This document shows positions 7,058 through 20,588 of a stretch of 20,588 nucleotides of DNA, piece after piece. The translations under genes were made by a program, and so were the position numbers. Position 1 is the stretch's first letter, and every line of letters begins with the position of its first letter. This DNA comes from a virus, in the IMG/VR virus record IMGVR_UViG_3300043436_002024, positions 1 to 20,588 of that record; one strand, 5' to 3'. The notes beneath the pieces were generated by a model, which saw only the letters and a list, made by a program, of their open reading frames with translations, did not search any database and was not told where the DNA came from.

Positions 7058-7366
7058 ATGCAATCAAGATATCAAAACATACCGACTACTAAGCTAAACG
7101 CAACAGGAAGTACTTACTATGAAACTAATACGTACCCTGAAATACAGCCAACTAATAACGATTATTATGTTATTACAACTGTAGATGATAGATTAGATTT
7201 AATAGCTCTTGATTTTTACCAAGATTCAAGTCTATGGTGGATTATTGCATCAGCAAACGCATTACCAGGTGATTCTATTTACCCTCCTATCGGAGTACAG
7301 TTAAGAATTCCTACTGACATAACGACGATTTTAAGTAATTATAATTTAATAAATAATGGCTATTGA
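7058..7366 (+). CDS. Baseplate wedge protein, gp53-like with LysM-type fold
   Basis: The 102-aa protein has the small LysM-like module seen in T4 gp53 and related baseplate proteins. About residues 36-60 read YYVITTVDDRLDLIALDFYQ, then SSLWWIIASANAL (58-69) and a closing PPIGVQLRIP turn and strand (76-85). The pattern of a D-R-L-D-x-I-A helix, a WW-I-I-A helix and an L-R-I-P strand is very characteristic. It likely links hub and wedge parts of the baseplate. It is shorter than T4 gp53 (196 aa), so only the core module is kept. The gene overlaps the hub ORF by 11 nt, implying translational coupling. Confidence 0.8.
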   Translation: MQSRYQNIPTTKLNATGSTYYETNTYPEIQPTNNDYYVITTVDDRLDLIALDFYQDSSLWWIIASANALPGDSIYPPIGVQLRIPTDITTILSNYNLINNGY

Positions 7367-10300
7367 TAGTAACGTAAAGTTATCCAATGTTATAGGAGCT
7401 CCATTTAGCGATTATGTTTTGTTACAACTTTACCAAAGAGCTGCACATAATAGTACGCTTAATAGATCAAACGAAGAGGTTTTATTTTTAGCTAATAAAA
7501 CAGCGTGGGCACGACTTGTATCTTCTGTTAACATTACTAACGATACACTTGGATTAGTTTATAAAGACTTAGGAGTAAATTATAGCACGCCAGATGGCTT
7601 AGCAAAGAATTGGATACTAGAGGCAGGTACCTCTAAACAAAAAGGAAACGGAATCGAACTAAGGTACGGCATCGGTCCAGACGGAGCATACGGACTAGGG
7701 GGCACAGATGAATTAGGATACAGACCAATGCCCGGATTAACTTCAGTTCAAATAGAAACCACAGGGCGTCTAGGATCTCTAAGACAAGCCACAATTCAAT
7801 TTAAGGTTTGGAACATGGACCAACTAGATGTAGTTGAAGCTCTCTATTTTAGACTAGGGTATTCAATGTTACTTGAGTGGGGACATACACAGTATTTTGA
7901 TAATAAAGGCGGATTCGAACGTATTGCTTACGGAATTAACGATCCATTTAAGCCTCAAAGGAGAAAAGAACAAATACAGCAAGAGATTGCATTTAAAGCT
8001 CGAAATAGTTTCGGTAATTACGACGGTATGTTAGGGGTCGTCTCTAACTTTACCTGGGCTATGAATCAAGATGCAGGATATGATTGTACTGTTAAGTTAG
8101 TAGGATTGGGAGCTGTAATGGATTCTATGAGGATTAACCAGTCATACAAACTTCCTGAAGGAACATTAAAGCAGTACAAAAAAGATAAAGATGCTTTAGC
8201 TCGGCTAGCTGAAGAACAAGCAGCCCTAAAAAAACAACTGGAGTTCTTAAAAAACAATCCGCCGGTTGTTGTTGCCGGTAGTGCTGCATCTACAGGAACA
8301 CCACCTCCTCCGACACCTAAAACTATAGAAGAACTGTATCAAAGGTACGTAAATTACGACGGATACAAAGGAACTTTTGAAGAGTTTAGAAATACTTCAA
8401 CCGGGTTTGCTATCCCTCGATGGCCTTTCCCGGCTAACTTTAATACAGCAACAAAAACACCTGAAAGCTTTTTTTCATACTACGCTCCTTTTAAAAATTC
8501 AAGCTATGTAGCTTCTGCACAGAGCTTTGTAATAAGCAACTATCAAGGACTTTATTTAAATATAAGCGGTGCAGGAGGGTTTAAAAGAGTGCCTCTTAAC
8601 GATCCAAGTACAATATTAGGGATCAATGTAGCTACATTAGATGAAGCTGCAAGATCCGGAATTTTCGACGGAATATACAGTAATTCAACTTTTAGATACG
8701 GGTTATCAGAGGTTAATGCGGAAGTAGCAAAGGGAAATATTCCAAAACCCTACGGACAATTTGGGATAAGTAAAATTTTCGATCTTGGTGCTCGTTTTAC
8801 TCGAACCGGTGGCGGTCCAAATGGCGCAGGATCACCGGCCTATCTACCGTTAACTAGTCCGTTAGTAATAGGAACCGACACATTCCCTTCAACTCCTATA
8901 AGCTTTACCGTACCTGTAAAGACTACTGTTAAAGATTACGATACTACTTTTCAGATTACTGCAAAAATTAACTCGGATCCAAAAGATTTATATTTTCAAC
9001 CGTCTAGACAGACAGTAATTGATGCACTAGATTTAGCATTAAAAAATCCTTCTTTTGGAATAAGTAATGTAAGAATTAGTTCTCCTTTTCTTTCTAGAAT
9101 TCAAATAGCGGGAGACTTTAATGTTACAGGCGTTGAAGTACCGTATAGTGGACCAGCAGATAAGAAAGCTCAAGTAGTAGCTAGTAATAACGACGCTAAT
9201 GCAAGAAATAACGGAGAATCAAGAGTAGTACCTTTTAACTTCACCTTTACAACAGACAATCCAGGATTTATTAGTTCAGTTGGTGCAGTAGCACCTCCTT
9301 CTACACCCGCTAAAACAGAAACAGGAACCGGTAATACCGGAGATACAGGTGGAACTGTAAATAAAGCTAGCACTGAACAGCAAGATGCAGCATCAGGCTT
9401 TGCATCGGCGTTACAGGCTATGTTAATTACCGTACAAGCTTCTGCACAAGCTAAAAGAGCTAATAGCGGCAAGTCTTACCTAATGGTAGATATTAGCGAG
9501 GCGACAAGTAAGTTTTTCCAAGAAGGTATTATGAACGGAATTCTAGATACAAAAGGTGTTCCTAGTAAGATCCCTAATCCTACTACGTCAGAGTTTAACC
9601 TACTTCAATATGCAGCCAAAGGATTCAACAGTCAGTTAATGATCGACCCTACCCTGTATAACGACGTACTTTCAGTGCAATTTGATAAACTATGTAAAGC
9701 TTTTATAGTAGCTTACAACCAAGGAGGAGCTGATGCCGAATCTACTAAGTTACGAGCGCCAGTGTATATTTCATTTGGATATCTACTAGCTTTCTTAAAT
9801 AATATGTGTTTAATTTACGATTCACCGGAGTCTAAGTTACCGACAAATAATAATCCGGCTACAGGCACTCCAAAACGTCCGTACGTCTATATAGATTTTA
9901 ATCCAGAGACTAATTTTTGCTTAACTTCCCCGCAACAACTATCGATCGATCCTACTACCTGTTTAATTTCATTTCAAGCAAATCAAACCGACTATAAGAC
10001 TATCTTTCCTGAAGATATAATAAAAAGCTGGAGTAATAAAAAAGACGGACCTCTTTTCGATCCTGGTTCAGGAGTTAACGCAATTTCAAGCGAATTAAAC
10101 CGAGCGGGATTTTCTTTTAAAGGAGAAAATGCTTATCAAGGTAAGATAATGAACGTAATGTTAAACATCGATTACTTACTTGGATTAATAACAAGCTTTA
10201 CAGGATCAGATCCTGAACATGCCGTTAGGTTAGAGGCTTTCTTACAGAAAATTCTAGCAGATGTTAATAAAGCATTAGGCAATACTAATAGTTTTAGAGT

Positions 10301-11840
10301 AGCTTATAGAGACGATTCAAATACCGTACAGATTCAAGACGACCAGTGGATACCAAGCCTGGTAAAAGAGACTAATATGCTTCAAGCAAGCGTATATAAC
10401 TCTAAATTAACCGAAATAGGTACAGGAAAGCTTTCAGGACTAATACCCGTTTCTAGCGATCCAAAAGAACTACCAGTAGCAGGACAATTAAGCTTAGCTA
10501 GACAGTTTCAGTTAAGATCTGTAATGTCTACTAAACTTGCAAGTATGATAGCAATATCTGCACAAGCAGCAACAGGATCAGTTAACGCAACAGACCATTC
10601 CTCCCTTAGCTACTTAAATCAGAATTTCCAAGATAGGTATAAGCCTTATATACAAGATGCTTCTAACGGTAATGCAGGTACGAATGTTAATACTAAAAAT
10701 AACGAACCGAGCAACGATCAAAAAGCAGCTCAAATGTTTAATACCCATGTTACTACTATCTACTCTAACCTTCTTCTTAACCCAGATTATATCGACCTCA
10801 CTAAAAACTACTATATTGAGAGAATGTCTAAGGTTAAATCAGGAGATCCGATCGTATCTGCAGCTCCTTTTATTCCTGCTGAGTTAGAAATGACCTTAGA
10901 CGGTATTAGCGGTATTATAATGGGCAATGCCTTTACCGTACCGCAAGATAGGTTACCTTTATCTTTAAGAGGTAAAAACGGACTTGCAAAGATAGCTTTC
11001 ATCGTTACTGGCCTTACTCACACAGTTCAAAACAATGAGTGGTTGACTAAGATAAAAGGGCAAATGATTAAATTAAGAGGAAAAGCTGAAATAGCAAAAG
11101 CTGCAGATATTGTAGGTAAGATAATTGATTACGGTGCTGATTCTCTACCGTCTACTAGCGGAGGAACCGGTGGAGGAGCTAGCGGAGGAACTGATTATCA
11201 ACTTTCAAGTTACGGAGGGCCTGTCAAAATCGGCAGTATTACAGTTTGTCCAGGACAGTATCCAGGAGCAGGCAATAAGTACTCTTGTGCTCGTCAAGTA
11301 AAAACTATAATGACTCAAGAAGTCTTCGATAAGCAATACGGATATACGTTTGTAAAAAATAAATCGGATATTAATTTAAATAAAGCAGGCTTGACTCCTT
11401 TAACAGAGTCAGAAATCGACAAGACAATTATGAAGGAAAAAAATCATTTTGATCAAGGAACTATGCCAAGTCCCGTACAAAACTTCGTAATACACCATAC
11501 CGCTGGACGCGGAACTGCTAAGGGCGTTGTCGGCACGTTTCAAAACAGAGGGTATCCTGCACAGTATATAATTGATAGAGACGGTATAATACACCAGTAC
11601 ATGCCAAACGGCGCATTTGCATGGCATGCAGGAAGTTACAATAGACGCGCTATGGGAGTAGAAGTAATAGGTGACAACGATAAAGACATAACTAAGAAAC
11701 AGATTGAAGCAGCAGTACGTCTTGCACAGTACCTAGGCTTTAGTAGAGATCAAATTATAGGACATGGACAAGTGCCTGGTGCAGATAAAGCAGCAGATGA
11801 AGGTAAAACTATTACGGACTATATAAAAACTTTAGTGTAG
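7356..11840 (+). CDS. Baseplate hub fused to C-terminal peptidoglycan amidase
   Basis: The 1494-aa protein is modular. Residues about 120-260 form a gp27-like hub segment: GLTSVQIETTGRLGSLRQAT, an LDVVEALYFRLGY helix, and MLLEWGHTQYFDNKG. A short coiled coil (about 268-300) and a Pro-rich linker (about 313-322) follow. Residues 330-640 and 700-1230 are further hub or insert regions, separated by a Gly/Thr linker near 650-672. The last hub part includes PAELEMTLDGISGI and an IAFIVTGLTHTV strand. After a Gly-rich linker (about 1265-1280) comes a zinc amidase (about 1375-1494, Amidase_2/PGRP type): IHHTAG with His1380, AWHAG with His1424, GVEVIGD, and GHGQVPGADKAADEG with His1470, Lys1478 and Asp1481. 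His1380, His1470 and Asp1481 are the likely zinc ligands. It should cut the MurNAc-L-Ala bond during injection. T4 instead uses a separate gp5 lysozyme on gp27. Confidence 0.85.
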   Translation: MAIDSNVKLSNVIGAPFSDYVLLQLYQRAAHNSTLNRSNEEVLFLANKTAWARLVSSVNITNDTLGLVYKDLGVNYSTPDGLAKNWILEAGTSKQKGNGIELRYGIGPDGAYGLGGTDELGYRPMPGLTSVQIETTGRLGSLRQATIQFKVWNMDQLDVVEALYFRLGYSMLLEWGHTQYFDNKGGFERIAYGINDPFKPQRRKEQIQQEIAFKARNSFGNYDGMLGVVSNFTWAMNQDAGYDCTVKLVGLGAVMDSMRINQSYKLPEGTLKQYKKDKDALARLAEEQAALKKQLEFLKNNPPVVVAGSAASTGTPPPPTPKTIEELYQRYVNYDGYKGTFEEFRNTSTGFAIPRWPFPANFNTATKTPESFFSYYAPFKNSSYVASAQSFVISNYQGLYLNISGAGGFKRVPLNDPSTILGINVATLDEAARSGIFDGIYSNSTFRYGLSEVNAEVAKGNIPKPYGQFGISKIFDLGARFTRTGGGPNGAGSPAYLPLTSPLVIGTDTFPSTPISFTVPVKTTVKDYDTTFQITAKINSDPKDLYFQPSRQTVIDALDLALKNPSFGISNVRISSPFLSRIQIAGDFNVTGVEVPYSGPADKKAQVVASNNDANARNNGESRVVPFNFTFTTDNPGFISSVGAVAPPSTPAKTETGTGNTGDTGGTVNKASTEQQDAASGFASALQAMLITVQASAQAKRANSGKSYLMVDISEATSKFFQEGIMNGILDTKGVPSKIPNPTTSEFNLLQYAAKGFNSQLMIDPTLYNDVLSVQFDKLCKAFIVAYNQGGADAESTKLRAPVYISFGYLLAFLNNMCLIYDSPESKLPTNNNPATGTPKRPYVYIDFNPETNFCLTSPQQLSIDPTTCLISFQANQTDYKTIFPEDIIKSWSNKKDGPLFDPGSGVNAISSELNRAGFSFKGENAYQGKIMNVMLNIDYLLGLITSFTGSDPEHAVRLEAFLQKILADVNKALGNTNSFRVAYRDDSNTVQIQDDQWIPSLVKETNMLQASVYNSKLTEIGTGKLSGLIPVSSDPKELPVAGQLSLARQFQLRSVMSTKLASMIAISAQAATGSVNATDHSSLSYLNQNFQDRYKPYIQDASNGNAGTNVNTKNNEPSNDQKAAQMFNTHVTTIYSNLLLNPDYIDLTKNYYIERMSKVKSGDPIVSAAPFIPAELEMTLDGISGIIMGNAFTVPQDRLPLSLRGKNGLAKIAFIVTGLTHTVQNNEWLTKIKGQMIKLRGKAEIAKAADIVGKIIDYGADSLPSTSGGTGGGASGGTDYQLSSYGGPVKIGSITVCPGQYPGAGNKYSCARQVKTIMTQEVFDKQYGYTFVKNKSDINLNKAGLTPLTESEIDKTIMKEKNHFDQGTMPSPVQNFVIHHTAGRGTAKGVVGTFQNRGYPAQYIIDRDGIIHQYMPNGAFAWHAGSYNRRAMGVEVIGDNDKDITKKQIEAAVRLAQYLGFSRDQIIGHGQVPGADKAADEGKTITDYIKTLV

Positions 11841-12497
11841 ATGCCATTAAAATACTACCCTTTAACGAGAATAAAGACTGACTTGTATACAAGAGGCGAT
11901 GAGTATGTAACTATAGACGGTGAAGCTTATTCTGGACGTTATTACACTACTTACGATAATAAAGCTTTTACAGGGACAAATCCTGTATTAGGTGAAAGCA
12001 AGGTATTAATCTCTTTCCTTACTGACACACCTCACCCGAGCTTAATTTCTGAAAAACAAAAAGCTGCTGCAAAACTTGGACCTTTAGATTTCTTATCCGC
12101 AACACAGGCACAGGCTCAAGATTACTTTAGTAGAGACTTAACAGAATTAGTACCTTATTATCCTGTCCCTTTAGATTCTGACTATGCCCGAGGCTATTTT
12201 ACAAGGTATTTTGCTAAGACCGTTAGCGGTCCTGGCTATGTAATTGAAATATCGGAGCTTGATTGGACTAAGATACAAAACGGTAATGTTAGCAATACAG
12301 TATTAGGGTATGAAACTATGGATATGCTTTGGCAGTTAACTGGTCCATTAAATGATACGAGAAAATCTCAATACCAAATTGTAGGAGGAGTCTTTAGTAC
12401 AAATAAACGCGTAACAGAAGCAAAGCAAAAAAGTTTTAGAGGTATTGTAGAGTTTATTGGCGGTGATTACGTTAAGTATGCAAGAATAACCTCGTAA
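11841..12497 (+). CDS. Hypothetical tail/baseplate-associated protein
   Basis: I do not recognise this 218-aa protein. Its ATG abuts the hub stop (TAGATG), so it ends the tail operon and is probably translationally coupled. The first 55 residues are Tyr/Thr/Gly rich and beta-like (YTRGDEYVTIDGEAYSGRYY, then NKAFTGTNPVLG). A helix around 68-100 (EKQKAAAKLGPLDFLSATQA) follows, then a Tyr/Pro segment and a mixed alpha/beta end with FRGIVEFIGGDYVKYA. There is no signal peptide or membrane segment. Position suggests a minor virion or baseplate component; no function can be read directly. Confidence 0.75.
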   Translation: MPLKYYPLTRIKTDLYTRGDEYVTIDGEAYSGRYYTTYDNKAFTGTNPVLGESKVLISFLTDTPHPSLISEKQKAAAKLGPLDFLSATQAQAQDYFSRDLTELVPYYPVPLDSDYARGYFTRYFAKTVSGPGYVIEISELDWTKIQNGNVSNTVLGYETMDMLWQLTGPLNDTRKSQYQIVGGVFSTNKRVTEAKQKSFRGIVEFIGGDYVKYARITS

Positions 12498-12500
12498 AAG

Positions 12501-12530
12501 TTGCTTCTTTAAAAAGAGTTACTTATTTTA
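12501..12530 (+). promoter_or_regulatory. Bacteroidota-type promoter opening the replication region
   Basis: TTG at 12501-12503 (in AAGTTGCT), 20 nt, then TATTTTAC from 12524. It shares the AAGTTGCT box, the spacing and the preceding ACT with the site at 14285. It lies exactly at the junction between tail genes and the DNA polymerase gene. The predicted start site is around 12534-12538, so the polymerase leader would be only about 8-12 nt. Confidence 0.7.
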
Positions 12531-12545
12531 CTGTAAATAAATGTT

Positions 12546-13841
12546 ATGTACTTCATTATCGAAACCGAGGAGCAATTAGCACAGCTTCCTAGACCGGAAA
12601 AGTGTTTTATTGAGTTAATGTCGATGTCTGAACATACTCATCCTGCTTTAACTACACCGTGCGTCTTATATTATAATGATTTTGAAAAAGGATACATTAT
12701 TCCAATTAACCACTCAGAAGCCTTTTCCCTTTCTATTGATCAAATTCAGACCTTTTTAAGAGGTATTCCTAAAATCTACTTATTAGATAAGAAGTGGCAT
12801 TCCTACTTCTTAAATTTACCTAACGGAATTGATTTATACTTTACTCTACTCGATATAGAAGGTAAGATTCCAGACATACAATGTTATACACCAGTACACC
12901 TAGACTATTACGAGAAGTTTAAGTACTCTCCTACAGTTAATAACTACATTCCAATTTCTAAGCATTATGAAAGATGCGAATGTATGTTTGAAATGGTTAA
13001 AGACTACGTAGGAAGAGAGTCAAATACTGAATGGCAGAACAAATATACAGAAGTTTACAAATGGGTAGAAGAGCAGGGAATCTTAGTAGATGAAAAGCTC
13101 TTTGATAAGTACTTTGAGACTCCTTGGAAAGGGAGATCTCTAAGGGATAGTAAGGTTTATTCAAGTTATAACCTATATAACATTACCTCACGTCCCACTA
13201 ATGCATTTAATAGCATAAACTTCCTTGCTTTTAACAAAGAAAACGGTTCTAGAACGGCTTTTATCCCAGAAAACGATGCTTTTATAGAGTTTGATTTTGA
13301 CGGATATCATTTAAGGCTAATTGCCAATAAAATGGGAACTGAAATACCGCAAGATGAGTCGATTCATCAGTACTTAGGTAAGCAGTACTTTAAAAAAGAC
13401 GAATTAACACTTGAAGAATACCAAGAAGCTAAGAAAATTACGTTTAGACAGATGTATAACGGAGTAGAAGACGAGTATAAACATATTGAATTCTTCGAAG
13501 ACGTAGCAATTGCAGTAGATGCTATGTGGACTGCCTATAAAAGTAGCGGTTTTTTAGAGTTACCGAATAGAAGAAACCTTATATTAGAGAACGCTAATCC
13601 TCAAAAGCTATTTAACTACTATATTCAGTGCTTAGAGACAGTAAATAACATTAAAAAGTTAAATAAGCTAAAAAACTATCTTCAAGATAAACAAAGCAAA
13701 GTGCTTTTAGTTGTATACGATTCAATACTAATCGATTACGCAGCATCAGACGGAAAAGGTACCTTATCTCACATTAAAGACATCTTAGAAGCCGGTAGAT
13801 TTAAGGTAAAAGCTAAAAAAAGCAACAACTATAACTTTTAA
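12546..13841 (+). CDS. Compact family A DNA polymerase with vestigial exonuclease domain
   Basis: All three polA motifs are visible. A T-x-R (214-216) and RTAFIP lead into motif A, FDFDGYHLRLIA, with catalytic Asp250. Motif B is AKKITFRQMYNG with Lys296, Phe300 and Tyr304. Motif C is LLVVYDSILID with catalytic Asp392. Aligning by eye to E. coli Pol I, the steric-gate Glu710 is His255, Arg754 is Tyr292, His881-Asp-Glu883 is Tyr391-Asp-Ser393, and Phe762 is kept. Residues 1-125 follow the layout of the Klenow 3'-5' exonuclease, including KGYIIPINH like the Pol I YIPVAH strand. The DxE, N-x3-D and final Asp positions are not conserved, so proofreading is probably absent. At 431 aa it is much shorter than a 605-aa Klenow fragment. 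T4 uses a family B enzyme in this place. It is likely the phage replicase, working with the SSB and helicase downstream. Confidence 0.85.
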   Translation: MYFIIETEEQLAQLPRPEKCFIELMSMSEHTHPALTTPCVLYYNDFEKGYIIPINHSEAFSLSIDQIQTFLRGIPKIYLLDKKWHSYFLNLPNGIDLYFTLLDIEGKIPDIQCYTPVHLDYYEKFKYSPTVNNYIPISKHYERCECMFEMVKDYVGRESNTEWQNKYTEVYKWVEEQGILVDEKLFDKYFETPWKGRSLRDSKVYSSYNLYNITSRPTNAFNSINFLAFNKENGSRTAFIPENDAFIEFDFDGYHLRLIANKMGTEIPQDESIHQYLGKQYFKKDELTLEEYQEAKKITFRQMYNGVEDEYKHIEFFEDVAIAVDAMWTAYKSSGFLELPNRRNLILENANPQKLFNYYIQCLETVNNIKKLNKLKNYLQDKQSKVLLVVYDSILIDYAASDGKGTLSHIKDILEAGRFKVKAKKSNNYNF

Positions 13842-13863
13842 TACTCAGAACCAACTATTTATT

Positions 13864-14283
13864 ATGGAATTTATACAGTTAACACAAGATCAATTGAAGA
13901 ATAAGTTATTTTGCACATTCTCTCCTAAAGATAAGTTGGAAGAGGTTTTAGATACGATTAAATCCGAATATGTTATTATGTACGGAAAGATATTTGTATT
14001 GGAATCTGAGGAATCTGACGAGTTTTTGTGTACTTACAATATTGAAGTTCAAAGTACTAACACAAAAGTACTTCCAAATACGATACTTTTACATAGAAAG
14101 AAGGAAACTAATACGTTATACACGATTAACAGTTTAAACCTTCTAATTAAATCCCTAAACGAGGGAATCTTAGACACGTCCTTTAGAGTAGAATGGCAAA
14201 ATTACAGAAATACTGTACTTTTAACTCAAGGCGATGATCTAAGAAAACTTTCTACAAAAATCCACAAAATAGTTACTATTTAA
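13864..14283 (+). CDS. Hypothetical protein between polymerase and SSB
   Basis: I do not recognise this 139-aa protein. It is mixed alpha/beta, with an amphipathic N-terminal helix (residues 6-16), strands around SEYVIMYGKIFVLE (34-47) and a FLCTYNIEV strand. A C-terminal half carries TNTLYTINSLNLLIKSLNEG (about 82-101) and ends FRVEWQNYRNTVLLT. It has two cysteines and no signal or membrane segment. It follows the polymerase by 22 nt, with TATTTAT immediately before the ATG (13856-13862), and precedes the promoter of the SSB gene. In T4 the SSB gene is flanked by the small regulators gp59 and gp33, so a replication or transcription accessory role is possible, but I see no sequence match to either. 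Confidence 0.75.
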   Translation: MEFIQLTQDQLKNKLFCTFSPKDKLEEVLDTIKSEYVIMYGKIFVLESEESDEFLCTYNIEVQSTNTKVLPNTILLHRKKETNTLYTINSLNLLIKSLNEGILDTSFRVEWQNYRNTVLLTQGDDLRKLSTKIHKIVTI

Positions 14284-14284
14284 G

Positions 14285-14315
14285 TTGCTAATTCGGATTT
14301 TTCTACTTACATTTC
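14285..14315 (+). promoter_or_regulatory. Bacteroidota-type promoter for the SSB gene
   Basis: TTG at 14285-14287 (in AAGTTGCT), 20 nt, then TACATTTC at 14308-14315, a match to TAnnTTT. It is the third copy of the same box pair with identical spacing. It sits in the 67-nt gap before the gp32-like gene, a gene expected to need high expression. The predicted leader is about 30 nt. Confidence 0.75.
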
Positions 14316-14350
14316 CTTATAAAGTAATTTTTAAACTAAAACAATAAGTT

Positions 14351-15160
14351 ATGGCAATGGACCTTAGTGCGATTAAGTCGAAACTTAGCTCGCTACAAAA
14401 CCAAAAGTCAGGCGGTCAAAAAAGAGACATGTCTTTGATTTTATGGAAACCTACTGTGGGTAAACACAGCGTTCGTATCGTTCCTGCAACATGGGACAGA
14501 ACAAATCCTTTTAAAGAGATACTAGTACATTACGGTATTGGTAACCGTACTATGATTTCATTAGTTAACTTCGGTGAAAAAGATCCAATCGTTGAATTTG
14601 CTAAGCAATTAGCTACAGCAGGGGATAAGGAAAACTGGGTTATGTCTAAGAAGTTAGAACCTAAGATGCGTGTATTCGCTCCTGTCATCGTTAGAGGTGA
14701 AGAAGAGAAGGGCGTACGCTTATGGGAGTTTGGTAAGCAAATTTATGCTGAATTATTATCACTAGCCGACGATCCTGATGTAGGAGATTACACAGATGTA
14801 ATTCAAGGCCGTGATATTACGATTGAAACTACCGATGCAGCAACTAACGGTACCGGTTATAATCAATCTAAAGTACGTGTCCGTACTAAAACTACTCCTT
14901 TATCAGAAGATGCAACAGAAGTTGATAAGTGGTTAAACAATCAACCAGAGGTATTCACTATCTTTAAGAAATATTCTTACGATGAGATGAAAGAATCTTT
15001 GTTAAGTTGGTTACACCCTGAAGCAGCTACTGACGAACCAGCAGCTCCTGCAGCACCTGTAGTAGAAGCACCAGCTCCTGCTAATAAACCAGCATCATTT
15101 GCTTTAAACGCTAAACCTAAAGCAAGCATTGACGACGAGTTTGACGAATTATTTAAATAA
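14351..15160 (+). CDS. Single-stranded DNA-binding protein, T4 gp32-like
   Basis: The 269-aa protein resembles T4 gp32 in layout. A basic N-terminal segment for cooperative binding (residues 5-25) precedes the DNA-binding core starting near MSLILWKPTVGKHSVRIVP (27-45), then HYGIGNRTMISLVNFGEKDP and VIVRGEEEKGVRLWEFGKQI. A Pro/Ala-rich flexible linker (about 228-249) leads to an acidic tip, DDEFDELF (261-268), the usual docking site for replication partners. There are no cysteines at all, so the zinc ribbon of T4 gp32 (His64, Cys77, Cys87, Cys90) is missing. Of ten Arg codons seven are CGT/CGC, unlike the AGA-rich neighbours, which suggests high expression. It has its own promoter. It coats unwound template and recruits UvsX, helicase and polymerase. 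Confidence 0.85.
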   Translation: MAMDLSAIKSKLSSLQNQKSGGQKRDMSLILWKPTVGKHSVRIVPATWDRTNPFKEILVHYGIGNRTMISLVNFGEKDPIVEFAKQLATAGDKENWVMSKKLEPKMRVFAPVIVRGEEEKGVRLWEFGKQIYAELLSLADDPDVGDYTDVIQGRDITIETTDAATNGTGYNQSKVRVRTKTTPLSEDATEVDKWLNNQPEVFTIFKKYSYDEMKESLLSWLHPEAATDEPAAPAAPVVEAPAPANKPASFALNAKPKASIDDEFDELFK

Positions 15161-15168
15161 ACAAATAC

Positions 15169-16245
15169 ATGGCAAAAGGAACTAAAGCTTCTCTTAATGA
15201 GAGTATAGCTGGTGCCCTAAAGGGTACCTTTAATCTAGATAGCTTCAAAGAAGCAAAGAACTTATCTAGTACATCGATTAAGATGAAAGAACAAAAATGG
15301 ATACCTTTGTCAAAAGCCTTTCAAGACTGTTTATCTATACCTGGCATCCCACAAGGCCATATTACACTACTCCGCGGTCACTCTGACACCGGTAAAACAA
15401 CAGCTCTATTAGAAGCAGCAGTAAGCGCCCAGAAAATGGGCGTCTTACCTGTTTTTATTGTTACTGAGATGAAATGGAATTGGGAACATGCTAGGTTAAT
15501 GGGATTAGAGTATGAAGAAGTAGCTGATGAGAATGGAGTAGTTAAAGATTATAAAGGATTTTTCTTATATATTGATAGAGAAAGATTAAATAGTATTGAA
15601 GACGTAGGTGCATTTATTGCAGATTTATTAGACGAACAGAAAAACGGTAAGCTACCTTATGACTTATTATTTTTATGGGATTCAGTAGGTAGCATACCTT
15701 GTGAAATGTCTATAACATCTAATAAAAATAATAACGAATGGAATGCAGGTGCTATGTCTAAGACATTTGGCAACTTTATTAACCAAAAAATCGTATTATC
15801 ACGTAAAGAAAGTCAACCCTATACTAACTCAATGCTAGCAGTTAATAAGATCTGGGTAGCTAAAGCAGAAAACATCATGGCACAGCCTAAGATGAAAAAC
15901 AAGGGCGGAGATACGATGTATTTTGACGCTTCGTTAATTGTTACTTTTGGTAATGTTACTAGCTCAGGTACAAATAAAATTAAAGCTACAAAAAATGGCA
16001 AGGATGTAGAGTTTGCAAAGAGAACTAAAGTTAGCTGTGATAAGAATCACGTTAACGATGTTACTTCTGCCGGTAGAGTTATTATGACTGCACACGGTTT
16101 TATTGACGATACTAAGCAAGCTATTGATGCTTATAAGAAAGAGTATTCAAAGGGCTGGTTAAAGACTTTAGGTACCACTGACTTTGATGTAATAATAGAA
16201 ACCGACGACGACAGTAAGGATATTTTTGACGCTTCAGAAGAATAA
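15169..16245 (+). CDS. uvsX: RecA-like recombinase, UvsX
   Basis: The 358-aa protein is a RecA/Rad51-fold ATPase. It has a Walker A GHSDTGKT at residues 70-77, a likely catalytic Glu100 at the end of a FIVTE strand, and a Walker B DLLFLWD (165-171) followed by SVGSIP. A mobile-loop-like region follows near 183-197 (TSNKNNNEWNAGAMS). The C-terminus is very acidic (ETDDDSKDIFDASEE), as in T4 UvsX. It catalyses strand invasion for recombination-dependent replication and repair, on filaments formed with displacement of the gp32-like SSB encoded 8 nt upstream. Length is close to T4 UvsX (about 390 aa). No UvsY-like loader is visible here. The start is ATG with no Shine-Dalgarno (aacaaatac upstream). 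Confidence 0.9.
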   Translation: MAKGTKASLNESIAGALKGTFNLDSFKEAKNLSSTSIKMKEQKWIPLSKAFQDCLSIPGIPQGHITLLRGHSDTGKTTALLEAAVSAQKMGVLPVFIVTEMKWNWEHARLMGLEYEEVADENGVVKDYKGFFLYIDRERLNSIEDVGAFIADLLDEQKNGKLPYDLLFLWDSVGSIPCEMSITSNKNNNEWNAGAMSKTFGNFINQKIVLSRKESQPYTNSMLAVNKIWVAKAENIMAQPKMKNKGGDTMYFDASLIVTFGNVTSSGTNKIKATKNGKDVEFAKRTKVSCDKNHVNDVTSAGRVIMTAHGFIDDTKQAIDAYKKEYSKGWLKTLGTTDFDVIIETDDDSKDIFDASEE

Positions 16246-16249
16246 TAAC

Positions 16250-17287
16250 ATGAATACAGACTATAGAAAAATGTTTACGGAAATGGAAAATGAACCGGTA
16301 ACGACCCTGCATAAAGATAGCAGGGTTCTTATTGTGGATTCGTTAAATACGTTTTTACGTAGTTTTGTAGCAATACATCACGTAAATCCAGCAGGTAACC
16401 ACGTAGGAGGTTTGGGAGGTTTTTTAAAATCAGTCGGTGCTGTAATAAAACAAATACAACCTACAAGAGTTATTTTAGTTTTTGACGGTGTTGGTGGTTC
16501 AACAAATAAGAGATACCTATATCCAGAGTATAAAGCTAATAGACATATTACTAAAATATCAAACTGGGATGCATTCGATAATCAAGAAGAAGAATCTGAG
16601 TCTATTACCAATCAAATCTTACGTTTAGTTTCTTATTTAAAGTGCTTACCTGTTGATTTAATTGCAGTAGATAAAATTGAAGCAGATGACGTAATTGGAT
16701 ATCTTGCAACTAGGTTTCCCGAAAAGGTAACTATATTATCTACTGACCAAGATTACCTACAACTCGTATCAGATAAAATATCTGTATATTCACCAGTTAA
16801 GAAGATAATCTATGACCCGGCTAGAGTAGTAAAAGAGTACGGAATTACACCTCAAAACTTTTTAGTAGGTAAAGTTATACTAGGAGATAAAGGCGATAAT
16901 GTACCTGGGGTAAAAGGTATTGGTGCAAAGACATTAATAAAGCTTTTTCCTCAATTAAAAGAAGAAGAGAAATTTAGGCTCTTAGTTTTACTAGAACATG
17001 CAAAGCAAAATATAACAAAAAGTAAGCATTACGGTGATATACTTAATTTTTCTTACCAATTAGATATAAACAGAAAATTAATGGACTTACATAGTCCAAA
17101 TATACCTCAAGAAGATAAGATTACAATAGATCACCTATTAAATAACCCGAATAATGAATACGACCCTACTAGGTTTGTAAAATTATACAACGAAGACTTG
17201 TTAGGTAAGACTCTACTTAGTCCTCAAATATGGTTAAGTGAAACTTTTGCAAAATTAACACAGTATAAGTTGAAAGATCAAGAATAG
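16250..17287 (+). CDS. 5'-3' exonuclease / flap endonuclease (T4 RNase H type)
   Basis: This 345-aa nuclease has all the metal-binding motifs of the FEN/PolA 5'-nuclease family. These are LIVDSLNTFLRSF with Asp30, VILVFDG with Asp79, then KRYLYPEYKANR (arch base), IEADDVIGYLA with Glu144/Asp146/Asp147, ILSTDQDYLQLV with Asp166/Asp168, and GDKGDNVPGVKGIGAKT with Asp213/Asp216, leading into the helix-hairpin-helix. It should remove RNA primers and 5' flaps on the lagging strand, the role of T4 rnh. I choose the ATG at 16250, four bases after the uvsX stop, over an upstream TTG that would overlap uvsX. About 25 residues precede the first motif, more than usual, and a 7-bp hairpin lies in that stretch. 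The polymerase here lacks a 5'-nuclease domain, so this gene supplies it separately. Confidence 0.9.
   Translation: MNTDYRKMFTEMENEPVTTLHKDSRVLIVDSLNTFLRSFVAIHHVNPAGNHVGGLGGFLKSVGAVIKQIQPTRVILVFDGVGGSTNKRYLYPEYKANRHITKISNWDAFDNQEEESESITNQILRLVSYLKCLPVDLIAVDKIEADDVIGYLATRFPEKVTILSTDQDYLQLVSDKISVYSPVKKIIYDPARVVKEYGITPQNFLVGKVILGDKGDNVPGVKGIGAKTLIKLFPQLKEEEKFRLLVLLEHAKQNITKSKHYGDILNFSYQLDINRKLMDLHSPNIPQEDKITIDHLLNNPNNEYDPTRFVKLYNEDLLGKTLLSPQIWLSETFAKLTQYKLKDQE
16304..16326 (+). other. GC-rich hairpin at the start of the 5'-nuclease gene
   Basis: ACCCTGC (16304-16310) and GCAGGGT (16320-16326) pair perfectly around a 9-nt AT-rich loop, inside codons 19-26. It stands out in an AT-rich region. It lacks a proper T run, so it is not a clear terminator; it may slow translation or protect a processed mRNA end, or be chance. 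Confidence 0.4.
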
Positions 17288-17319
17288 TTTACTACATTAA
17301 AGAATAAAGAGAATTAGTT

Positions 17320-18696
17320 ATGGCAGTTTTAAATCAGTTGAATCAATACGGAGTAGGCTTTCAGGTAAAGGTGATGTCGAGCTTACTAAAGCATAAAGAA
17401 TTTTTACAAAATATACACGACATATTAGAAGAGGAGTATTTTGATAATCCAGCACATAAATGGATTGTAGAGGAAATCTTAAAATACCATTACAAGTACC
17501 ATACTACACCTTCTCTTGATGCATTACAGGTAGAGGTTAAAAAAATTGATAATGAGGTATTAAAAGTATCTGTTATCGAGCAATTAAAAGAAGCTTATAA
17601 AGCATCTAACGAAGATCAAGAGTATGTAGAGCAGGAGTTTGCTAACTTCTGTAAAAACCAGCAGTTAAAAAAAGCATTATTATCTTCAGTTGATTTATTA
17701 GAGAAAGGACAATACGATGACATTAGGTACTTAATCGATTCAGCATTAAAAGCTGGTATGGATAAAAATCTAGGTCATGAATACGAAAAAGATACTGAAT
17801 CTCGTTATAGAGCAGAAGATAGAAATCCTATACCAACACCTTGGCCTCATGTTAATGAATTATTACAAGGAGGATTAGGATCAGGCGATGTTGGAATTAT
17901 ATTTGGCAATCCAGGCGGAGGTAAGAGTTGGATGCTAACAGCCTTAGGTGCTATGCCTGTGTCATTAGGATATACTGTAGCTCACTATACCTTAGAGTTA
18001 TCAGAAGGGTATATGGGCAGAAGATACGATGCTACCTTTACAGGACTTAAAGTACAAGAATTAGGTTTACATAGAACAGAAGTAAATGAGATGATTGATA
18101 AACTTAAAGGAAAGTTAATCATTAAAGAATTCTCAATGGGTAAAGCATCTATATCAAGCATCGAAGCTCATATTCAAAAAATGACAGACCTTGGAACTAA
18201 GCCGGATCTAGTTATTATTGACTACGTAGATTTATTAAAATCAAAACGTAAATCTACTGATAGAAAGGATGAGATTGACGATATATACATTTCTACTAAA
18301 GCTCTAGCAAGGGATCTTAAACTTCCGATATGGACCGTATCTCAAGTAAATAGAGCTGGTGCAAAAGACGATGTGATTGAAGGAGATAAAGCAGCTGGTT
18401 CATATAATAAAGTTATGATTGCAGATTTTGCAATGTCTTTATCGAGAAAAAGGTTAGATAAGATGAACGGTACTGGAAGAGCACATATTATGAAGAATCG
18501 ATATGGCGGCGACGGTATGACGTATCCGGTAAAAATTAATACTGAAAACGGTAATATAGAAATTTTAGATAGAGAGATGGAGGAAGGGGAATTTACCGTA
18601 GAAAATGGTAATCAAGGACCTAAGGCTCCGACTACTAATTTTAGTGCAGAAGAGAGGAATTATTTGCAGCAAAGATTCTTTGAATTAGGAAAATAA
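17320..18696 (+). CDS. Replicative DNA helicase, DnaB/T4 gp41-like
   Basis: The 458-aa protein is a hexameric 5'-3' helicase of the DnaB/gp41 family. Residues 1-150 form the helical N-terminal domain that contacts primase. After a linker, VNELLQGGLGSGDVGIIFG opens the RecA-like motor. Walker A is GNPGGGKS (196-203), the catalytic Glu is in LELSEG (Glu226), Walker B is LVIIDYVDLL with Asp301, the sensor is SQVNRAG (Gln342), and the arginine-finger region is KNRYGGDG (Arg394). The acidic C-terminal tail has a plausible partner-binding role. It unwinds the fork with the SSB and polymerase encoded upstream. No primase (gp61) or loader (gp59) is in the window. It follows the 5' nuclease by 32 nt; the ATG context is agttATGgca, with only a weak agag upstream. 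Confidence 0.92.
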   Translation: MAVLNQLNQYGVGFQVKVMSSLLKHKEFLQNIHDILEEEYFDNPAHKWIVEEILKYHYKYHTTPSLDALQVEVKKIDNEVLKVSVIEQLKEAYKASNEDQEYVEQEFANFCKNQQLKKALLSSVDLLEKGQYDDIRYLIDSALKAGMDKNLGHEYEKDTESRYRAEDRNPIPTPWPHVNELLQGGLGSGDVGIIFGNPGGGKSWMLTALGAMPVSLGYTVAHYTLELSEGYMGRRYDATFTGLKVQELGLHRTEVNEMIDKLKGKLIIKEFSMGKASISSIEAHIQKMTDLGTKPDLVIIDYVDLLKSKRKSTDRKDEIDDIYISTKALARDLKLPIWTVSQVNRAGAKDDVIEGDKAAGSYNKVMIADFAMSLSRKRLDKMNGTGRAHIMKNRYGGDGMTYPVKINTENGNIEILDREMEEGEFTVENGNQGPKAPTTNFSAEERNYLQQRFFELGK

Positions 18697-18699
18697 TGC

Positions 18700-18706
18700 T
18701 ATTTAT
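18700..18706 (+). promoter_or_regulatory. TATTTAT motif ahead of the 70-aa ORF
   Basis: TATTTAT (context tgcTATTTATtac) lies 20 nt before the ATG at 18727. It matches core and spacing at 1543 and 2588. Unlike those it is in the replication region, which argues against a strictly late role. Confidence 0.25.
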
Positions 18707-18726
18707 TACTACAAAAGGTATTTAAT

Positions 18727-18939
18727 ATGAGTTTAACTGATTTATACAACGAAAAAAAGACAGCACTTGCGCCTCCTGCAAATCAAACCACCTATGAAGA
18801 GTTTGTATTTGAGATGGAAAAAGACGGTACTAACGATTTAGTAGAGAGAAATATGGTAGATCCTACCTTTAGACCTCCTGCTGCTGGAACCTCATACCTT
18901 GAGACAGTCTTCCAAGACGGTCTAAACAAAAACCTGTAA
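18727..18939 (+). CDS. Small hypothetical protein before the reductase
   Basis: I do not recognise this 70-aa acidic protein. It has a short N-terminal helix (LTDLYNEKKTAL), a Glu-rich middle (TYEEFVFEMEKDGTNDLVE) and a Pro-rich C-terminal part (DPTFRPPAAGTSYLETVFQ). It has no cysteine, so it is not a glutaredoxin-type partner of the reductase that follows. One of the few purine-rich sites that could act as a Shine-Dalgarno, AAAAGG, lies about 8 nt upstream. The reading frame is clean and co-directional with both neighbours. The function is unknown. Confidence 0.65.
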   Translation: MSLTDLYNEKKTALAPPANQTTYEEFVFEMEKDGTNDLVERNMVDPTFRPPAAGTSYLETVFQDGLNKNL

Positions 18940-19028
18940 ATTTAACTAATTAGGTTATAGACCTAACGACGGTGCTAAAACCCTCGAATGAATAACGTAT
19001 CTTTAAAATTATAAAAAACGACGAAAAA
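18940..19028 (+). other. 89-nt leader of the reductase gene with a hairpin
   Basis: This is the longest gap between genes after 1191. TTAGGT (18950-18955) pairs with ACCTAA (18961-18966) around a 5-nt loop, without a T run. TATCTTTA at 18998-19005 resembles a -7 box, but the best upstream partner (GGTGCT at 18971) is 23 nt away, not 20, so a promoter is doubtful. I see no B12-box. Confidence 0.35.
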
Positions 19029-20588
19029 ATGGACATTTCACAGAGCATTTTAAGCGACATTACGGTATATATGAAGTATGCCAAATTTAATCCCGAAGTA
19101 CAGAGAAGGGAAACATGGAAGGAGTTAGTGGATAGAAACAAAGCAATGCACTTGAAGAAATTTCCAAAGTTACAGAAAGAAATTGAAAATGCTTATCAGT
19201 ATGTTTACGATAGAAAAGCATTACCTTCAATGCGCTCTATGCAATTTGCAGGTAAACCTATTGAAATTAGCCCTAACCGTATCTACAACTGTGCTTATCT
19301 TCCAATTGATGATTGGAGAGCCTTTGGAGAAACGATGTTCTTATTATTAGGCGGTACTGGGGTTGGTTATTCAGTACAGAAGCATCACGTTGATCAATTA
19401 CCTGAAATTAGAAAACCAGATCCGAAGAAGACTAGACGTTTTTTAATTGGTGATTCTATTGAAGGATGGGCTGATGCAATAAAAGTACTAGTTAGATCTT
19501 ATTTTGAAGGTGGATCATCTCCAGCATTTGACTTTTCAGATATTAGAGCTAAAGGAGCTGCCCTAATTACTACAGGCGGTAAAGCACCTGGACCTCAACC
19601 ATTAAAAGAATGCTTAATTAAGATACAAGGTATTTTAGATAGCAAAGAAAATAACGATAAATTAACTTCTATTGAAGTACACGATATAGTTTGCCATATT
19701 GCAGATGCAGTATTAACAGGCGGTATTAGAAGAGCTGCTTTGATTAGCCTCTTTAGTGCGGATGACGATGATATGATTTCAGCTAAGTCAGGCGCATGGT
19801 GGGAACTTAACCCACAACGCGGAAGAGCTAATAATTCAGCAGTATTATTAAGAAATAAAGTAACTGAAGAATTTTTCTTCGGCTTGTGGGACAAAATTAA
19901 GGCAAGCGGTGCTGGTGAACCTGGCATTTACTTATCTAACGATAAAGATTGGGGAACTAATCCTTGTTGCGAAATTGCTTTACGTCCTTTCCAATTCTGT
20001 AACTTATGTGAAGTAAATGTTTCTGATGTTGTAGATCAAGATGACTTAAATGCAAGAGTTAAAGCTGCTGCATTTATTGGTACCTTACAAGCATCTTATA
20101 CTAGCTTCCATTATTTACGTCCAATATGGCAGAGAACAACTGAAAAAGATGCTTTAATAGGTGTAGGAATGACAGGTGTTGGTTCTGGTAAAGCTCAACA
20201 GTTAGATCTCAAACAAGCAACTAAGATTGTTAACGAAGAAAATGAGAGAGTAGCTAAATTATTAGGAATTAATAAAGCAGCTAGAACTACTACTGTAAAA
20301 CCTTCAGGAACTTCATCTCTTGCATTAGGAACTTCATCAGGAATTCATGCATGGCATAATGACTTTTATATTAGAAGAATTAGAGTAGGTAAAAATGAAC
20401 CTATATACACATACTTAGCAATCAATCATCCAGAGCTTATCGAAGACGAATATTTTAGACCTCACGATACAGCAGTTATCTCTGTACCACAAAAAGCTCC
20501 AGTAGGATCTATCCTAAGACATGAATCTGCTTTAGACTTACTTGAGAGAGTTAAGTATGTTTATCAAAACTGGGTTAAACCAGATCAT
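19029..20588 (+). CDS. Class II (adenosylcobalamin-dependent) ribonucleotide reductase, 3'-partial
   Basis: The gene starts at ATG 19029 and is open through the right edge (520 codons seen). It matches monomeric ribonucleoside-triphosphate reductase (RTPR type). Early signs are SMRSMQFAG (67-75), NCAYLPIDD with Cys88, the LLLGGTGVGYSVQKHHV loop (106-121) and TTGGKAPGPQPL (181-192). The active-site loop is NPCCEIALRPFQFCN, with Cys313 (thiyl radical site), Glu315 and Cys324. Cys313 to Cys324 has the same 11-residue step as Cys408 to Cys419 in the Lactobacillus leichmannii enzyme, and Cys88 would be the partner of Cys324. VKPSGTSSLALGTSSGIHAWH (424-443) is the phosphate-binding region. It makes dNTPs from host NTPs and depends on B12 but not on oxygen. 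About 200 further residues are expected beyond the window. No intein or intron interrupts the visible part. Confidence 0.9.
   Translation, partial: MDISQSILSDITVYMKYAKFNPEVQRRETWKELVDRNKAMHLKKFPKLQKEIENAYQYVYDRKALPSMRSMQFAGKPIEISPNRIYNCAYLPIDDWRAFGETMFLLLGGTGVGYSVQKHHVDQLPEIRKPDPKKTRRFLIGDSIEGWADAIKVLVRSYFEGGSSPAFDFSDIRAKGAALITTGGKAPGPQPLKECLIKIQGILDSKENNDKLTSIEVHDIVCHIADAVLTGGIRRAALISLFSADDDDMISAKSGAWWELNPQRGRANNSAVLLRNKVTEEFFFGLWDKIKASGAGEPGIYLSNDKDWGTNPCCEIALRPFQFCNLCEVNVSDVVDQDDLNARVKAAAFIGTLQASYTSFHYLRPIWQRTTEKDALIGVGMTGVGSGKAQQLDLKQATKIVNEENERVAKLLGINKAARTTTVKPSGTSSLALGTSSGIHAWHNDFYIRRIRVGKNEPIYTYLAINHPELIEDEYFRPHDTAVISVPQKAPVGSILRHESALDLLERVKYVYQNWVKPDH

Follow-up and report, generated by a model that had tools for sequence, protein, structure and literature searches.

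A predicted thumbless, family A-related polymerase with a histidine at the steric gate in T4-like aquatic phages

What role can a family A-type polymerase of 431 residues play in a T4-like phage? The question is raised by the IMG/VR virus record IMGVR_UViG_3300043436_002024, of which we analyzed positions 1 to 20,588 (hereafter the window, a 20.6-kb fragment). Its gene content is T4-like, with tail genes on the left, and genes for a gp32-like single-strand DNA-binding protein (SSB), a UvsX-like recombinase, a 5'-3' exonuclease and a DnaB-like helicase on the right. A first-pass annotation of the sequence had described one of its genes as a minimal family A polymerase with a changed steric gate and a dead proofreading domain, and had predicted from this either unusual sugar selectivity with low fidelity, or a proofreading subunit encoded elsewhere. 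The features discussed below are listed in Table 1.

Table 1. Features of the mini-polymerase gene and its surroundings (positions in the window)
Feature	Position	Strand	Remark
Conserved upstream gene, 218 aa, after tail/amidase genes, probably virion-associated	11841..12497	+	role suggested by its place
Promoter-like element TTG-N20-TATTTT	12501..12529	+	upstream of mini-polymerase
Mini family A-like polymerase gene	12546..13841	+	431 aa, ATG start, frame open
Degenerate 3'-5' exonuclease-like domain, residues 1-135	12546..12950	+	putative register of exonuclease motifs
Place of deleted thumb, residues 178-208	13077..13169	+	30 residues vs 115 in E. coli Pol I
Motif A DFDGYHLR: catalytic Asp250, Asp252, gate His255	13293..13316	+	profile alignments
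Motif B Y292..K296..F300..Y304, Tyr292 as Arg754 equivalent	13419..13457	+	profile alignments
Asn357/Gln361 (Asn845/Gln849 equivalents) and invariant Glu364-Thr365	13614..13640	+	profile alignment
Motif C Tyr391-Asp392-Ser393	13716..13724	+	profile alignments
139-aa conserved partner gene	13864..14283	+	one family across three clades
gp32-like single-strand DNA-binding protein	14351..15160	+	PF08804, E 3.6e-11
UvsX/RecA-like recombinase	15169..16245	+	phrog_97, E 2.7e-15
5'-3' exonuclease, flap nuclease type	16250..17287	+	PF02739, E 3.7e-32; in-frame ATG 16250 chosen as start over TTG 16226
DnaB/gp41-like replicative helicase	17320..18696	+	phrog_19, E 1.4e-75

Taken alone, the window protein had no trustworthy match in Pfam, PHROG or PDB sequences. 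Its homology to family A was borne out by its relatives, since PF00476 was matched by 43 of 80 aligned sequences at E <= 0.1 (best 6.7e-13), and by the Pol I fold of its AlphaFold2 model (80-row alignment, pLDDT 94.5, pTM 0.91). The best Foldseek match of the model in the PDB was E. coli Pol I (8oo6_A, E 7.6e-18, TM 0.75 on the query). VIA-align placed 405 of the 431 residues on the Bst Pol I fragment 3hpo (Z 26.9, rmsd 3.6), with model residues 1-431 running against chain residues 300-874, a stretch that, judging from domain borders, we take to include Bst's own inactive exonuclease domain. As the alignment extends over the whole model, the Klenow exonuclease layout previously proposed for the N-terminus is upheld, and the predicted fold is that of Pol I/Klenow over the full length, degenerate exonuclease domain included.

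Searching viral contigs with tblastn, we confirmed relatives in 539 stretches with the window protein as query, in 312 with the protein of Flavobacterium phage immuto, and in 109 with that of Microcystis phage Mel-JY01; 80 loci per query were kept from these sets, which may overlap. A viral scan with the LR756508.1 protein gave nothing useful. The family comprises 185 distinct sequences in three clades (window-, immuto- and Mel-type), with identities down to about 22%. Across the 50,697 records of the phage collection, the mini-polymerase was present in six: four immuto records, Mel-JY01 and LR756508.1. Weaker matches in this collection covered part of the query only, and the annotated ones were mostly ordinary PolAs. 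The immuto protein (gp001, YP_010114413.1) is about 37% identical to the window protein, lies in the same cassette and is annotated as "DNA polymerase family A"; the Mel-JY01 protein is annotated as "hypothetical protein". A search of 84,980 bacterial and archaeal species genomes identified the gene in one MAG contig, in a bin that also has a large PolA, probably reflecting phage contigs binned alongside a bacterium. The phages that carry the gene come from lakes and the sea. In the open-access PMC literature (titles and beginnings of abstracts) we found neither a paper describing the mini-polymerase nor a second, thumbless family A enzyme. The available text of PMC12619734 gives three polymerase groups for "moraphages", and that of PMC9069017 mentions no second PolA.

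To place the active site, we mapped the protein onto E. coli Klenow by two profile alignments (hmmsearch and hhalign), which agreed. Residues 250-257 of the window protein are Asp250, Phe251, Asp252, Gly253, Tyr254, His255, Leu256 and Arg257. Both alignments put His255 on Glu710, Tyr292 on Arg754, Lys296 on Lys758, Phe300 on Phe762, Tyr304 on Tyr766, Asp392 on Asp882 and Ser393 on Glu883. The hmmsearch alignment also puts Asn357 on Asn845 and Gln361 on Gln849, the latter replacing a by-eye reading that had given this place to Lys354. A different alignment that would restore Glu at the gate is ruled out, because hmmsearch and hhalign agree on His255.

Eleven residues (Asp250, Asp252, His255, Tyr292, Lys296, Phe300, Tyr304, Lys354, Tyr358, Gln361 and Thr365) are kept in all 185 sequences, Asp392 and Tyr391 in 181 of 181 (with four gaps), and Asn357 in 184 of 185. 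With His255, Tyr292, Asp250, Lys296 and Tyr304 invariant, and Asp392 so wherever it is covered, the conservation is not due to chance. The kept catalytic aspartates and motif B Lys, Phe and Tyr, the His at the gate, the Tyr at the Arg754 position and the YDS of motif C were all read correctly in the first-pass annotation. We compared the family with a control set of 30 sequences (29 bacterial PolAs and T7 gp5, E. coli being kept apart). At the gate, 27 controls have Glu, three have Asp and none has the His found in every mini-polymerase; Arg754 is present in 30 of 30 controls, and replaced by Tyr in 185 of 185 family members. The change in motif C is less telling. Position 393 is Ala in 125 of the 185 sequences and Ser in 56, and Ser393 is unremarkable given that Ser occupies position 883 in two of the 30 controls and, as reported in the available text of PMC9324360, in the active and characterized PolA of Thermus phage Tt72. 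YDS by itself is not evidence for low activity.

The largest change, missed in the first-pass annotation, is the deletion of the thumb. Most sequences (124) have 30 residues from Gly178 to Tyr208, the span that corresponds to Gly544-Tyr659 of E. coli Pol I (115 residues); a further 60 have 12, and one has 28. Among the 29 measurable sequences of the control comparison, E. coli included, this span is of 111-122 residues in 28 and 189 in the other. The model has a short helix at 183-189, and then no helix of four or more residues until 235. The fingers are also shortened, with 53-57 residues from Tyr304 to Asn357 versus 79.

The first-pass reading of a dead proofreading domain is supported. The N-terminus alone gave no significant profile match (hhalign probability 0.15%, E 0.39), so the register of the motifs is tentative, although sensible: the invariant His56 would fall on Klenow YIPVAH (382-387), and the likewise invariant Lys83 and Asp96 near LKYD (421-424) and DTM (441), respectively. 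In this putative register, positions 25 and 85 (opposite Glu357 and Asp424) are hydrophobic or His, with no acid among the commonest residues listed. Position 23 (opposite Asp355) still has Glu or Asp in 108 rows, and position 145 (perhaps opposite Asp501) has Glu or Asp in 150. The set of four acids required by DEDD 3'-5' exonucleases would thus be incomplete, and a working two-metal site is unlikely, given the residues opposite Glu357 and Asp424.

Is this protein then the replicase of the phage? We searched for other polymerases in 20 records, namely every record of at least 80 kb among the mini-polymerase-carrying loci of the three tblastn searches, plus the three phage records (immuto counted once), requiring PF00476 over its cut-off in a frame of about 770-800 residues for a full-length PolA, and PF00136 for PolB. 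One or the other was found in 19 of the 20; in the remaining record, of 114 kb, we found no other PolA and no PolB. Shorter records, outside this count, were mixed: of those of 33-54 kb, six were without PF00476 and two had it, and a PolB was found in one of the three records of 73-78 kb. In immuto-type phages the second polymerase is a PolA of about 770 residues, complete in immuto itself (gp199, 777 aa). Across 64 such large PolAs, the equivalents of D355, E357, D424 and D501 are kept in 63 or 64, Glu710, Arg754 and the catalytic aspartates in all 64, and Tyr766 in at least 63, with Leu at 762. The same residues are kept in the five large PolAs of window-type records (L092-L096), one of which is cut before motif C. 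In Mel-type phages and LR756508.1 the second polymerase is a PolB. In LR756508.1 (260623-266900, near L087) the PolB matches are divided between two frames, of 1022 and 625 aa, and this gene may therefore be split or interrupted.

Conversely, the mini-polymerase is present in 14 of 18 long contigs with a large PolA. The other four are probably fragments, as they also lack the cassette helicase. Since the window record spans just 20.6 kb, we infer the replicase of the window phage itself from its relatives; the closest long one (L005, 90.4% DNA identity over 12138-20588) carries a large PolA in its 88.8-kb contig. The mini-polymerase is not the phage's replicase, and the separate proofreading subunit suggested in the first-pass annotation is not needed.

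We considered that the gene may be a broken or truncated PolA, and ruled this out from its steady length within clades, purifying selection and distance from the large PolA. Most of the 185 sequences are of near-uniform length within each clade, with a few cut by contig ends. The dN/dS ratios against three relatives were 0.064, 0.125 and 0.097 (a fourth comparison was saturated), with values of 0.02-0.12 in the cassette neighbours; the mini-polymerase is under purifying selection. Against the large PolA of the same phage, the best blastp E-value was 0.52, showing no recent copy.

The genomic context links the mini-polymerase to replication and recombination genes. In all three clades, the cassette runs from the upstream virion-side gene through the mini-polymerase, the 139-aa partner, gp32 SSB, UvsX/RecA and the 5' nuclease to DnaB, with two further genes ahead of SSB in the Mel-type, and two extra ORFs separating the mini-polymerase from the small ORF in LR756508.1. 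Several genes of these phages deserve separate mention. In the window, the 1494-aa tail-region protein (7356-11840) carries a C-terminal N-acetylmuramoyl-L-alanine amidase domain (residues 1372-1479, PF01510, E 1e-19). Mel-JY01 has an additional S-adenosylmethionine lyase-like gene (L086 16886-18172, PF23780, E 4.4e-10) between the small ORF and SSB, and its gene labelled "DNA polymerase I TIGR00593" (L086 20273-21313) aligns with the window 5' exonuclease (37% over 343 residues) and occupies its place in the cassette; the label is misleading. In Immutovirus (NC_055915.1 18607-37015, L082), annotated QueC/D/E/F, FolE and DpdA constitute 7-deazaguanine DNA modification genes.

The partners of the three clades form a single family, with 232 ORFs versus 249 mini-polymerase ORFs in the loci searched, and is found in the same six records of the phage collection and in no others. 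Its model was of moderate confidence (pLDDT 86.5, three of the five models being near 61-65) and revealed no meaningful PDB match: the top Foldseek hit had an E-value of 0.26, and the top VIA hit, to polyomavirus origin-binding domains, a Z of 4.6, which is too low to be meaningful. The best PHROG match (E 0.0052) was to a family of unknown function.

Upstream of the mini-polymerase, the element TTG-N19-21-TANNTT, which we take to resemble the Bacteroidota -33/-7 promoter, is present in 41 of 43 regions of the window-type, in 52 of 54 of the immuto-type and in 12 of 49 of the Mel-type, related regions not being independent, and about two are expected in each clade set from shuffled regions. 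An immuto-type region also has a strong, terminator-like hairpin (z -4.37) that includes a T run, with similar sequence in the 13 regions listed. The short leader stretch of window-type phages showed no notable fold (z -0.35). Since a promoter-like element of its own and, in the immuto-type, a terminator-like hairpin precede the gene, the mini-polymerase is set apart from the virion genes, and is probably the first gene of the replication operon and not the last of the virion operon. Elements of the form TTG-N20-TANNTT with AGTTGCT context occur in the window at 1142, 12501 and 14285, preceding the genes at 1191, 12546 and 14351, and are likely to be one class of promoters in this phage. In comparison with close relatives, DNA identity is patchy in the tail genes, at about 68-83%, and about 90% in the replication cassette; this jump, near 12138, suggests a recombination boundary near 12.1 kb.

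We propose, with a probability of about 0.55, that the mini-polymerase is an active, proofreading-dead accessory polymerase of low processivity, a family A homologue working beside a proofreading replicase. This reading is supported by the conservation of the active-site residues, the purifying selection, the predicted full-length Pol I fold, the thumb deletion, the presence of a second polymerase, and the shared cassette order and promoter-like element. The palm and fingers chemistry would be retained through its pair of catalytic aspartates, the lysine that binds the nucleotide, the Phe and Tyr of the O-helix and the Asn/Gln of the Q-helix. With the duplex-gripping thumb lost, the fingers shortened and proofreading lost, the enzyme would grip the primer-template weakly and add only short stretches. 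It would probably act on the same replication and recombination intermediates as the gp32, recombinase and 5' nuclease of its cassette; candidate tasks are the filling of gaps left by removed primers, the extension of recombination intermediates and lesion bypass. One candidate for a subunit that would keep it on DNA is the 139-aa neighbour. With His255 at the position of the Glu that normally excludes ribonucleotides, the choice of sugar would probably be loosened or altered, and the unusual selectivity predicted earlier is a plausible prediction. Speaking against an accessory polymerase are the Tyr at an Arg position invariant in the controls, and the possibility that a thumbless enzyme may not hold duplex. 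The earlier alternative, in which the protein is the main replicase and proofreading resides in another subunit, fits a gene that is the polymerase-like member of the main replication cassette; it is largely refuted, and very improbable, given the PolA with intact exonuclease residues or the PolB in 19 of 20 long records, and the poor suitability of a thumbless enzyme as replicase.

The loss of the thumb and the change of the gate in every member would also suit an end-making enzyme, acting on single strands by template-free addition or by making or extending short primers, perhaps with ribonucleotides, as the His gate suggests. Thumbless Abi reverse transcriptases bind single strands and work template-free (available text of PMC9508834). 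We regard this as unlikely: the equivalents of Arg668, Asn845 and Gln849, which in Pol I contact the minor groove of the primer-template, are kept, and Immutovirus has a DnaG-like primase of its own (gp091, PF08275, E 6.7e-6). A pseudo-polymerase, which would have no catalytic role and would serve the true replicase or helicase as scaffold or loader, with a parallel in the inactive half of eukaryotic Pol epsilon, would account for the loss of thumb, proofreading and the Arg754 and Glu883 equivalents in a gene tightly linked to replication genes, and there are precedents for inactive polymerase modules that are essential as scaffolds (PMC7544198, available text). We consider this reading improbable as well, since metal-binding aspartates and motif B Lys/Tyr invariant in three clades are more than a scaffold needs, and Ser at the Glu883 position is compatible with activity in Tt72 PolA. 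Beyond the accessory polymerase that we favour, it is possible, though rather doubtful, that these proteins and their 139-aa partners represent a thumbless, His-gate class derived from family A, with a mode of synthesis beyond that of known family A enzymes, sharing the work permanently with the proofreading PolA or PolB replicase. Examples would be ribonucleotide-tolerant short-patch synthesis, or end synthesis that needs no template, carried out on single strands or at recombination ends.

Many uncultured T4-like aquatic phages thus encode two polymerases. Of one, little but the palm and short fingers is left, and nature here provides a test of why family A enzymes need a thumb, a Glu gate and Arg754. 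The cultured representative, immuto on Flavobacterium, makes gene removal and biochemistry feasible. As a caution, the label "DNA polymerase family A" in such genomes need not denote the replicase.

Compared with known systems, the mini-polymerase is predicted to share the fold of E. coli Pol I Klenow, the Bst fragment and T7 gp5 over its full length, exonuclease-like domain included, and it has the equivalents of Asp705/Asp882, Lys758, Phe762, Tyr766, Asn845, Gln849 and Arg668 of family A enzymes. Unlike these, it is without a thumb, has shorter fingers, carries His for Glu710, Tyr for Arg754 and Ser/Ala for Glu883, has lost exonuclease acids, and is the second polymerase of its own genome. 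Immuto gp001 is a direct relative, yet its genome also encodes the complete PolA gp199. Tt72 PolA is, like the mini-polymerase, a phage family A enzyme with Ser at the Glu883 position (available text of PMC9324360), but it still has the Glu at its gate, a thumb and strong proofreading. Group 2.2 jumbo phages, as described in the available part of PMC7824862, have a minimal, split Pol III alpha together with PolB, similarly a reduced second polymerase beside a T4-type replication set; that enzyme, however, belongs to the Pol III alpha family and consists of two proteins, while the mini-polymerase belongs to family A. Finally, AbiK and Abi-P2 resemble the mini-polymerase in having palm and fingers but no thumb (PMC9508834, available text), and differ in being defence proteins of the reverse transcriptase family, with a helical domain in the thumb position.
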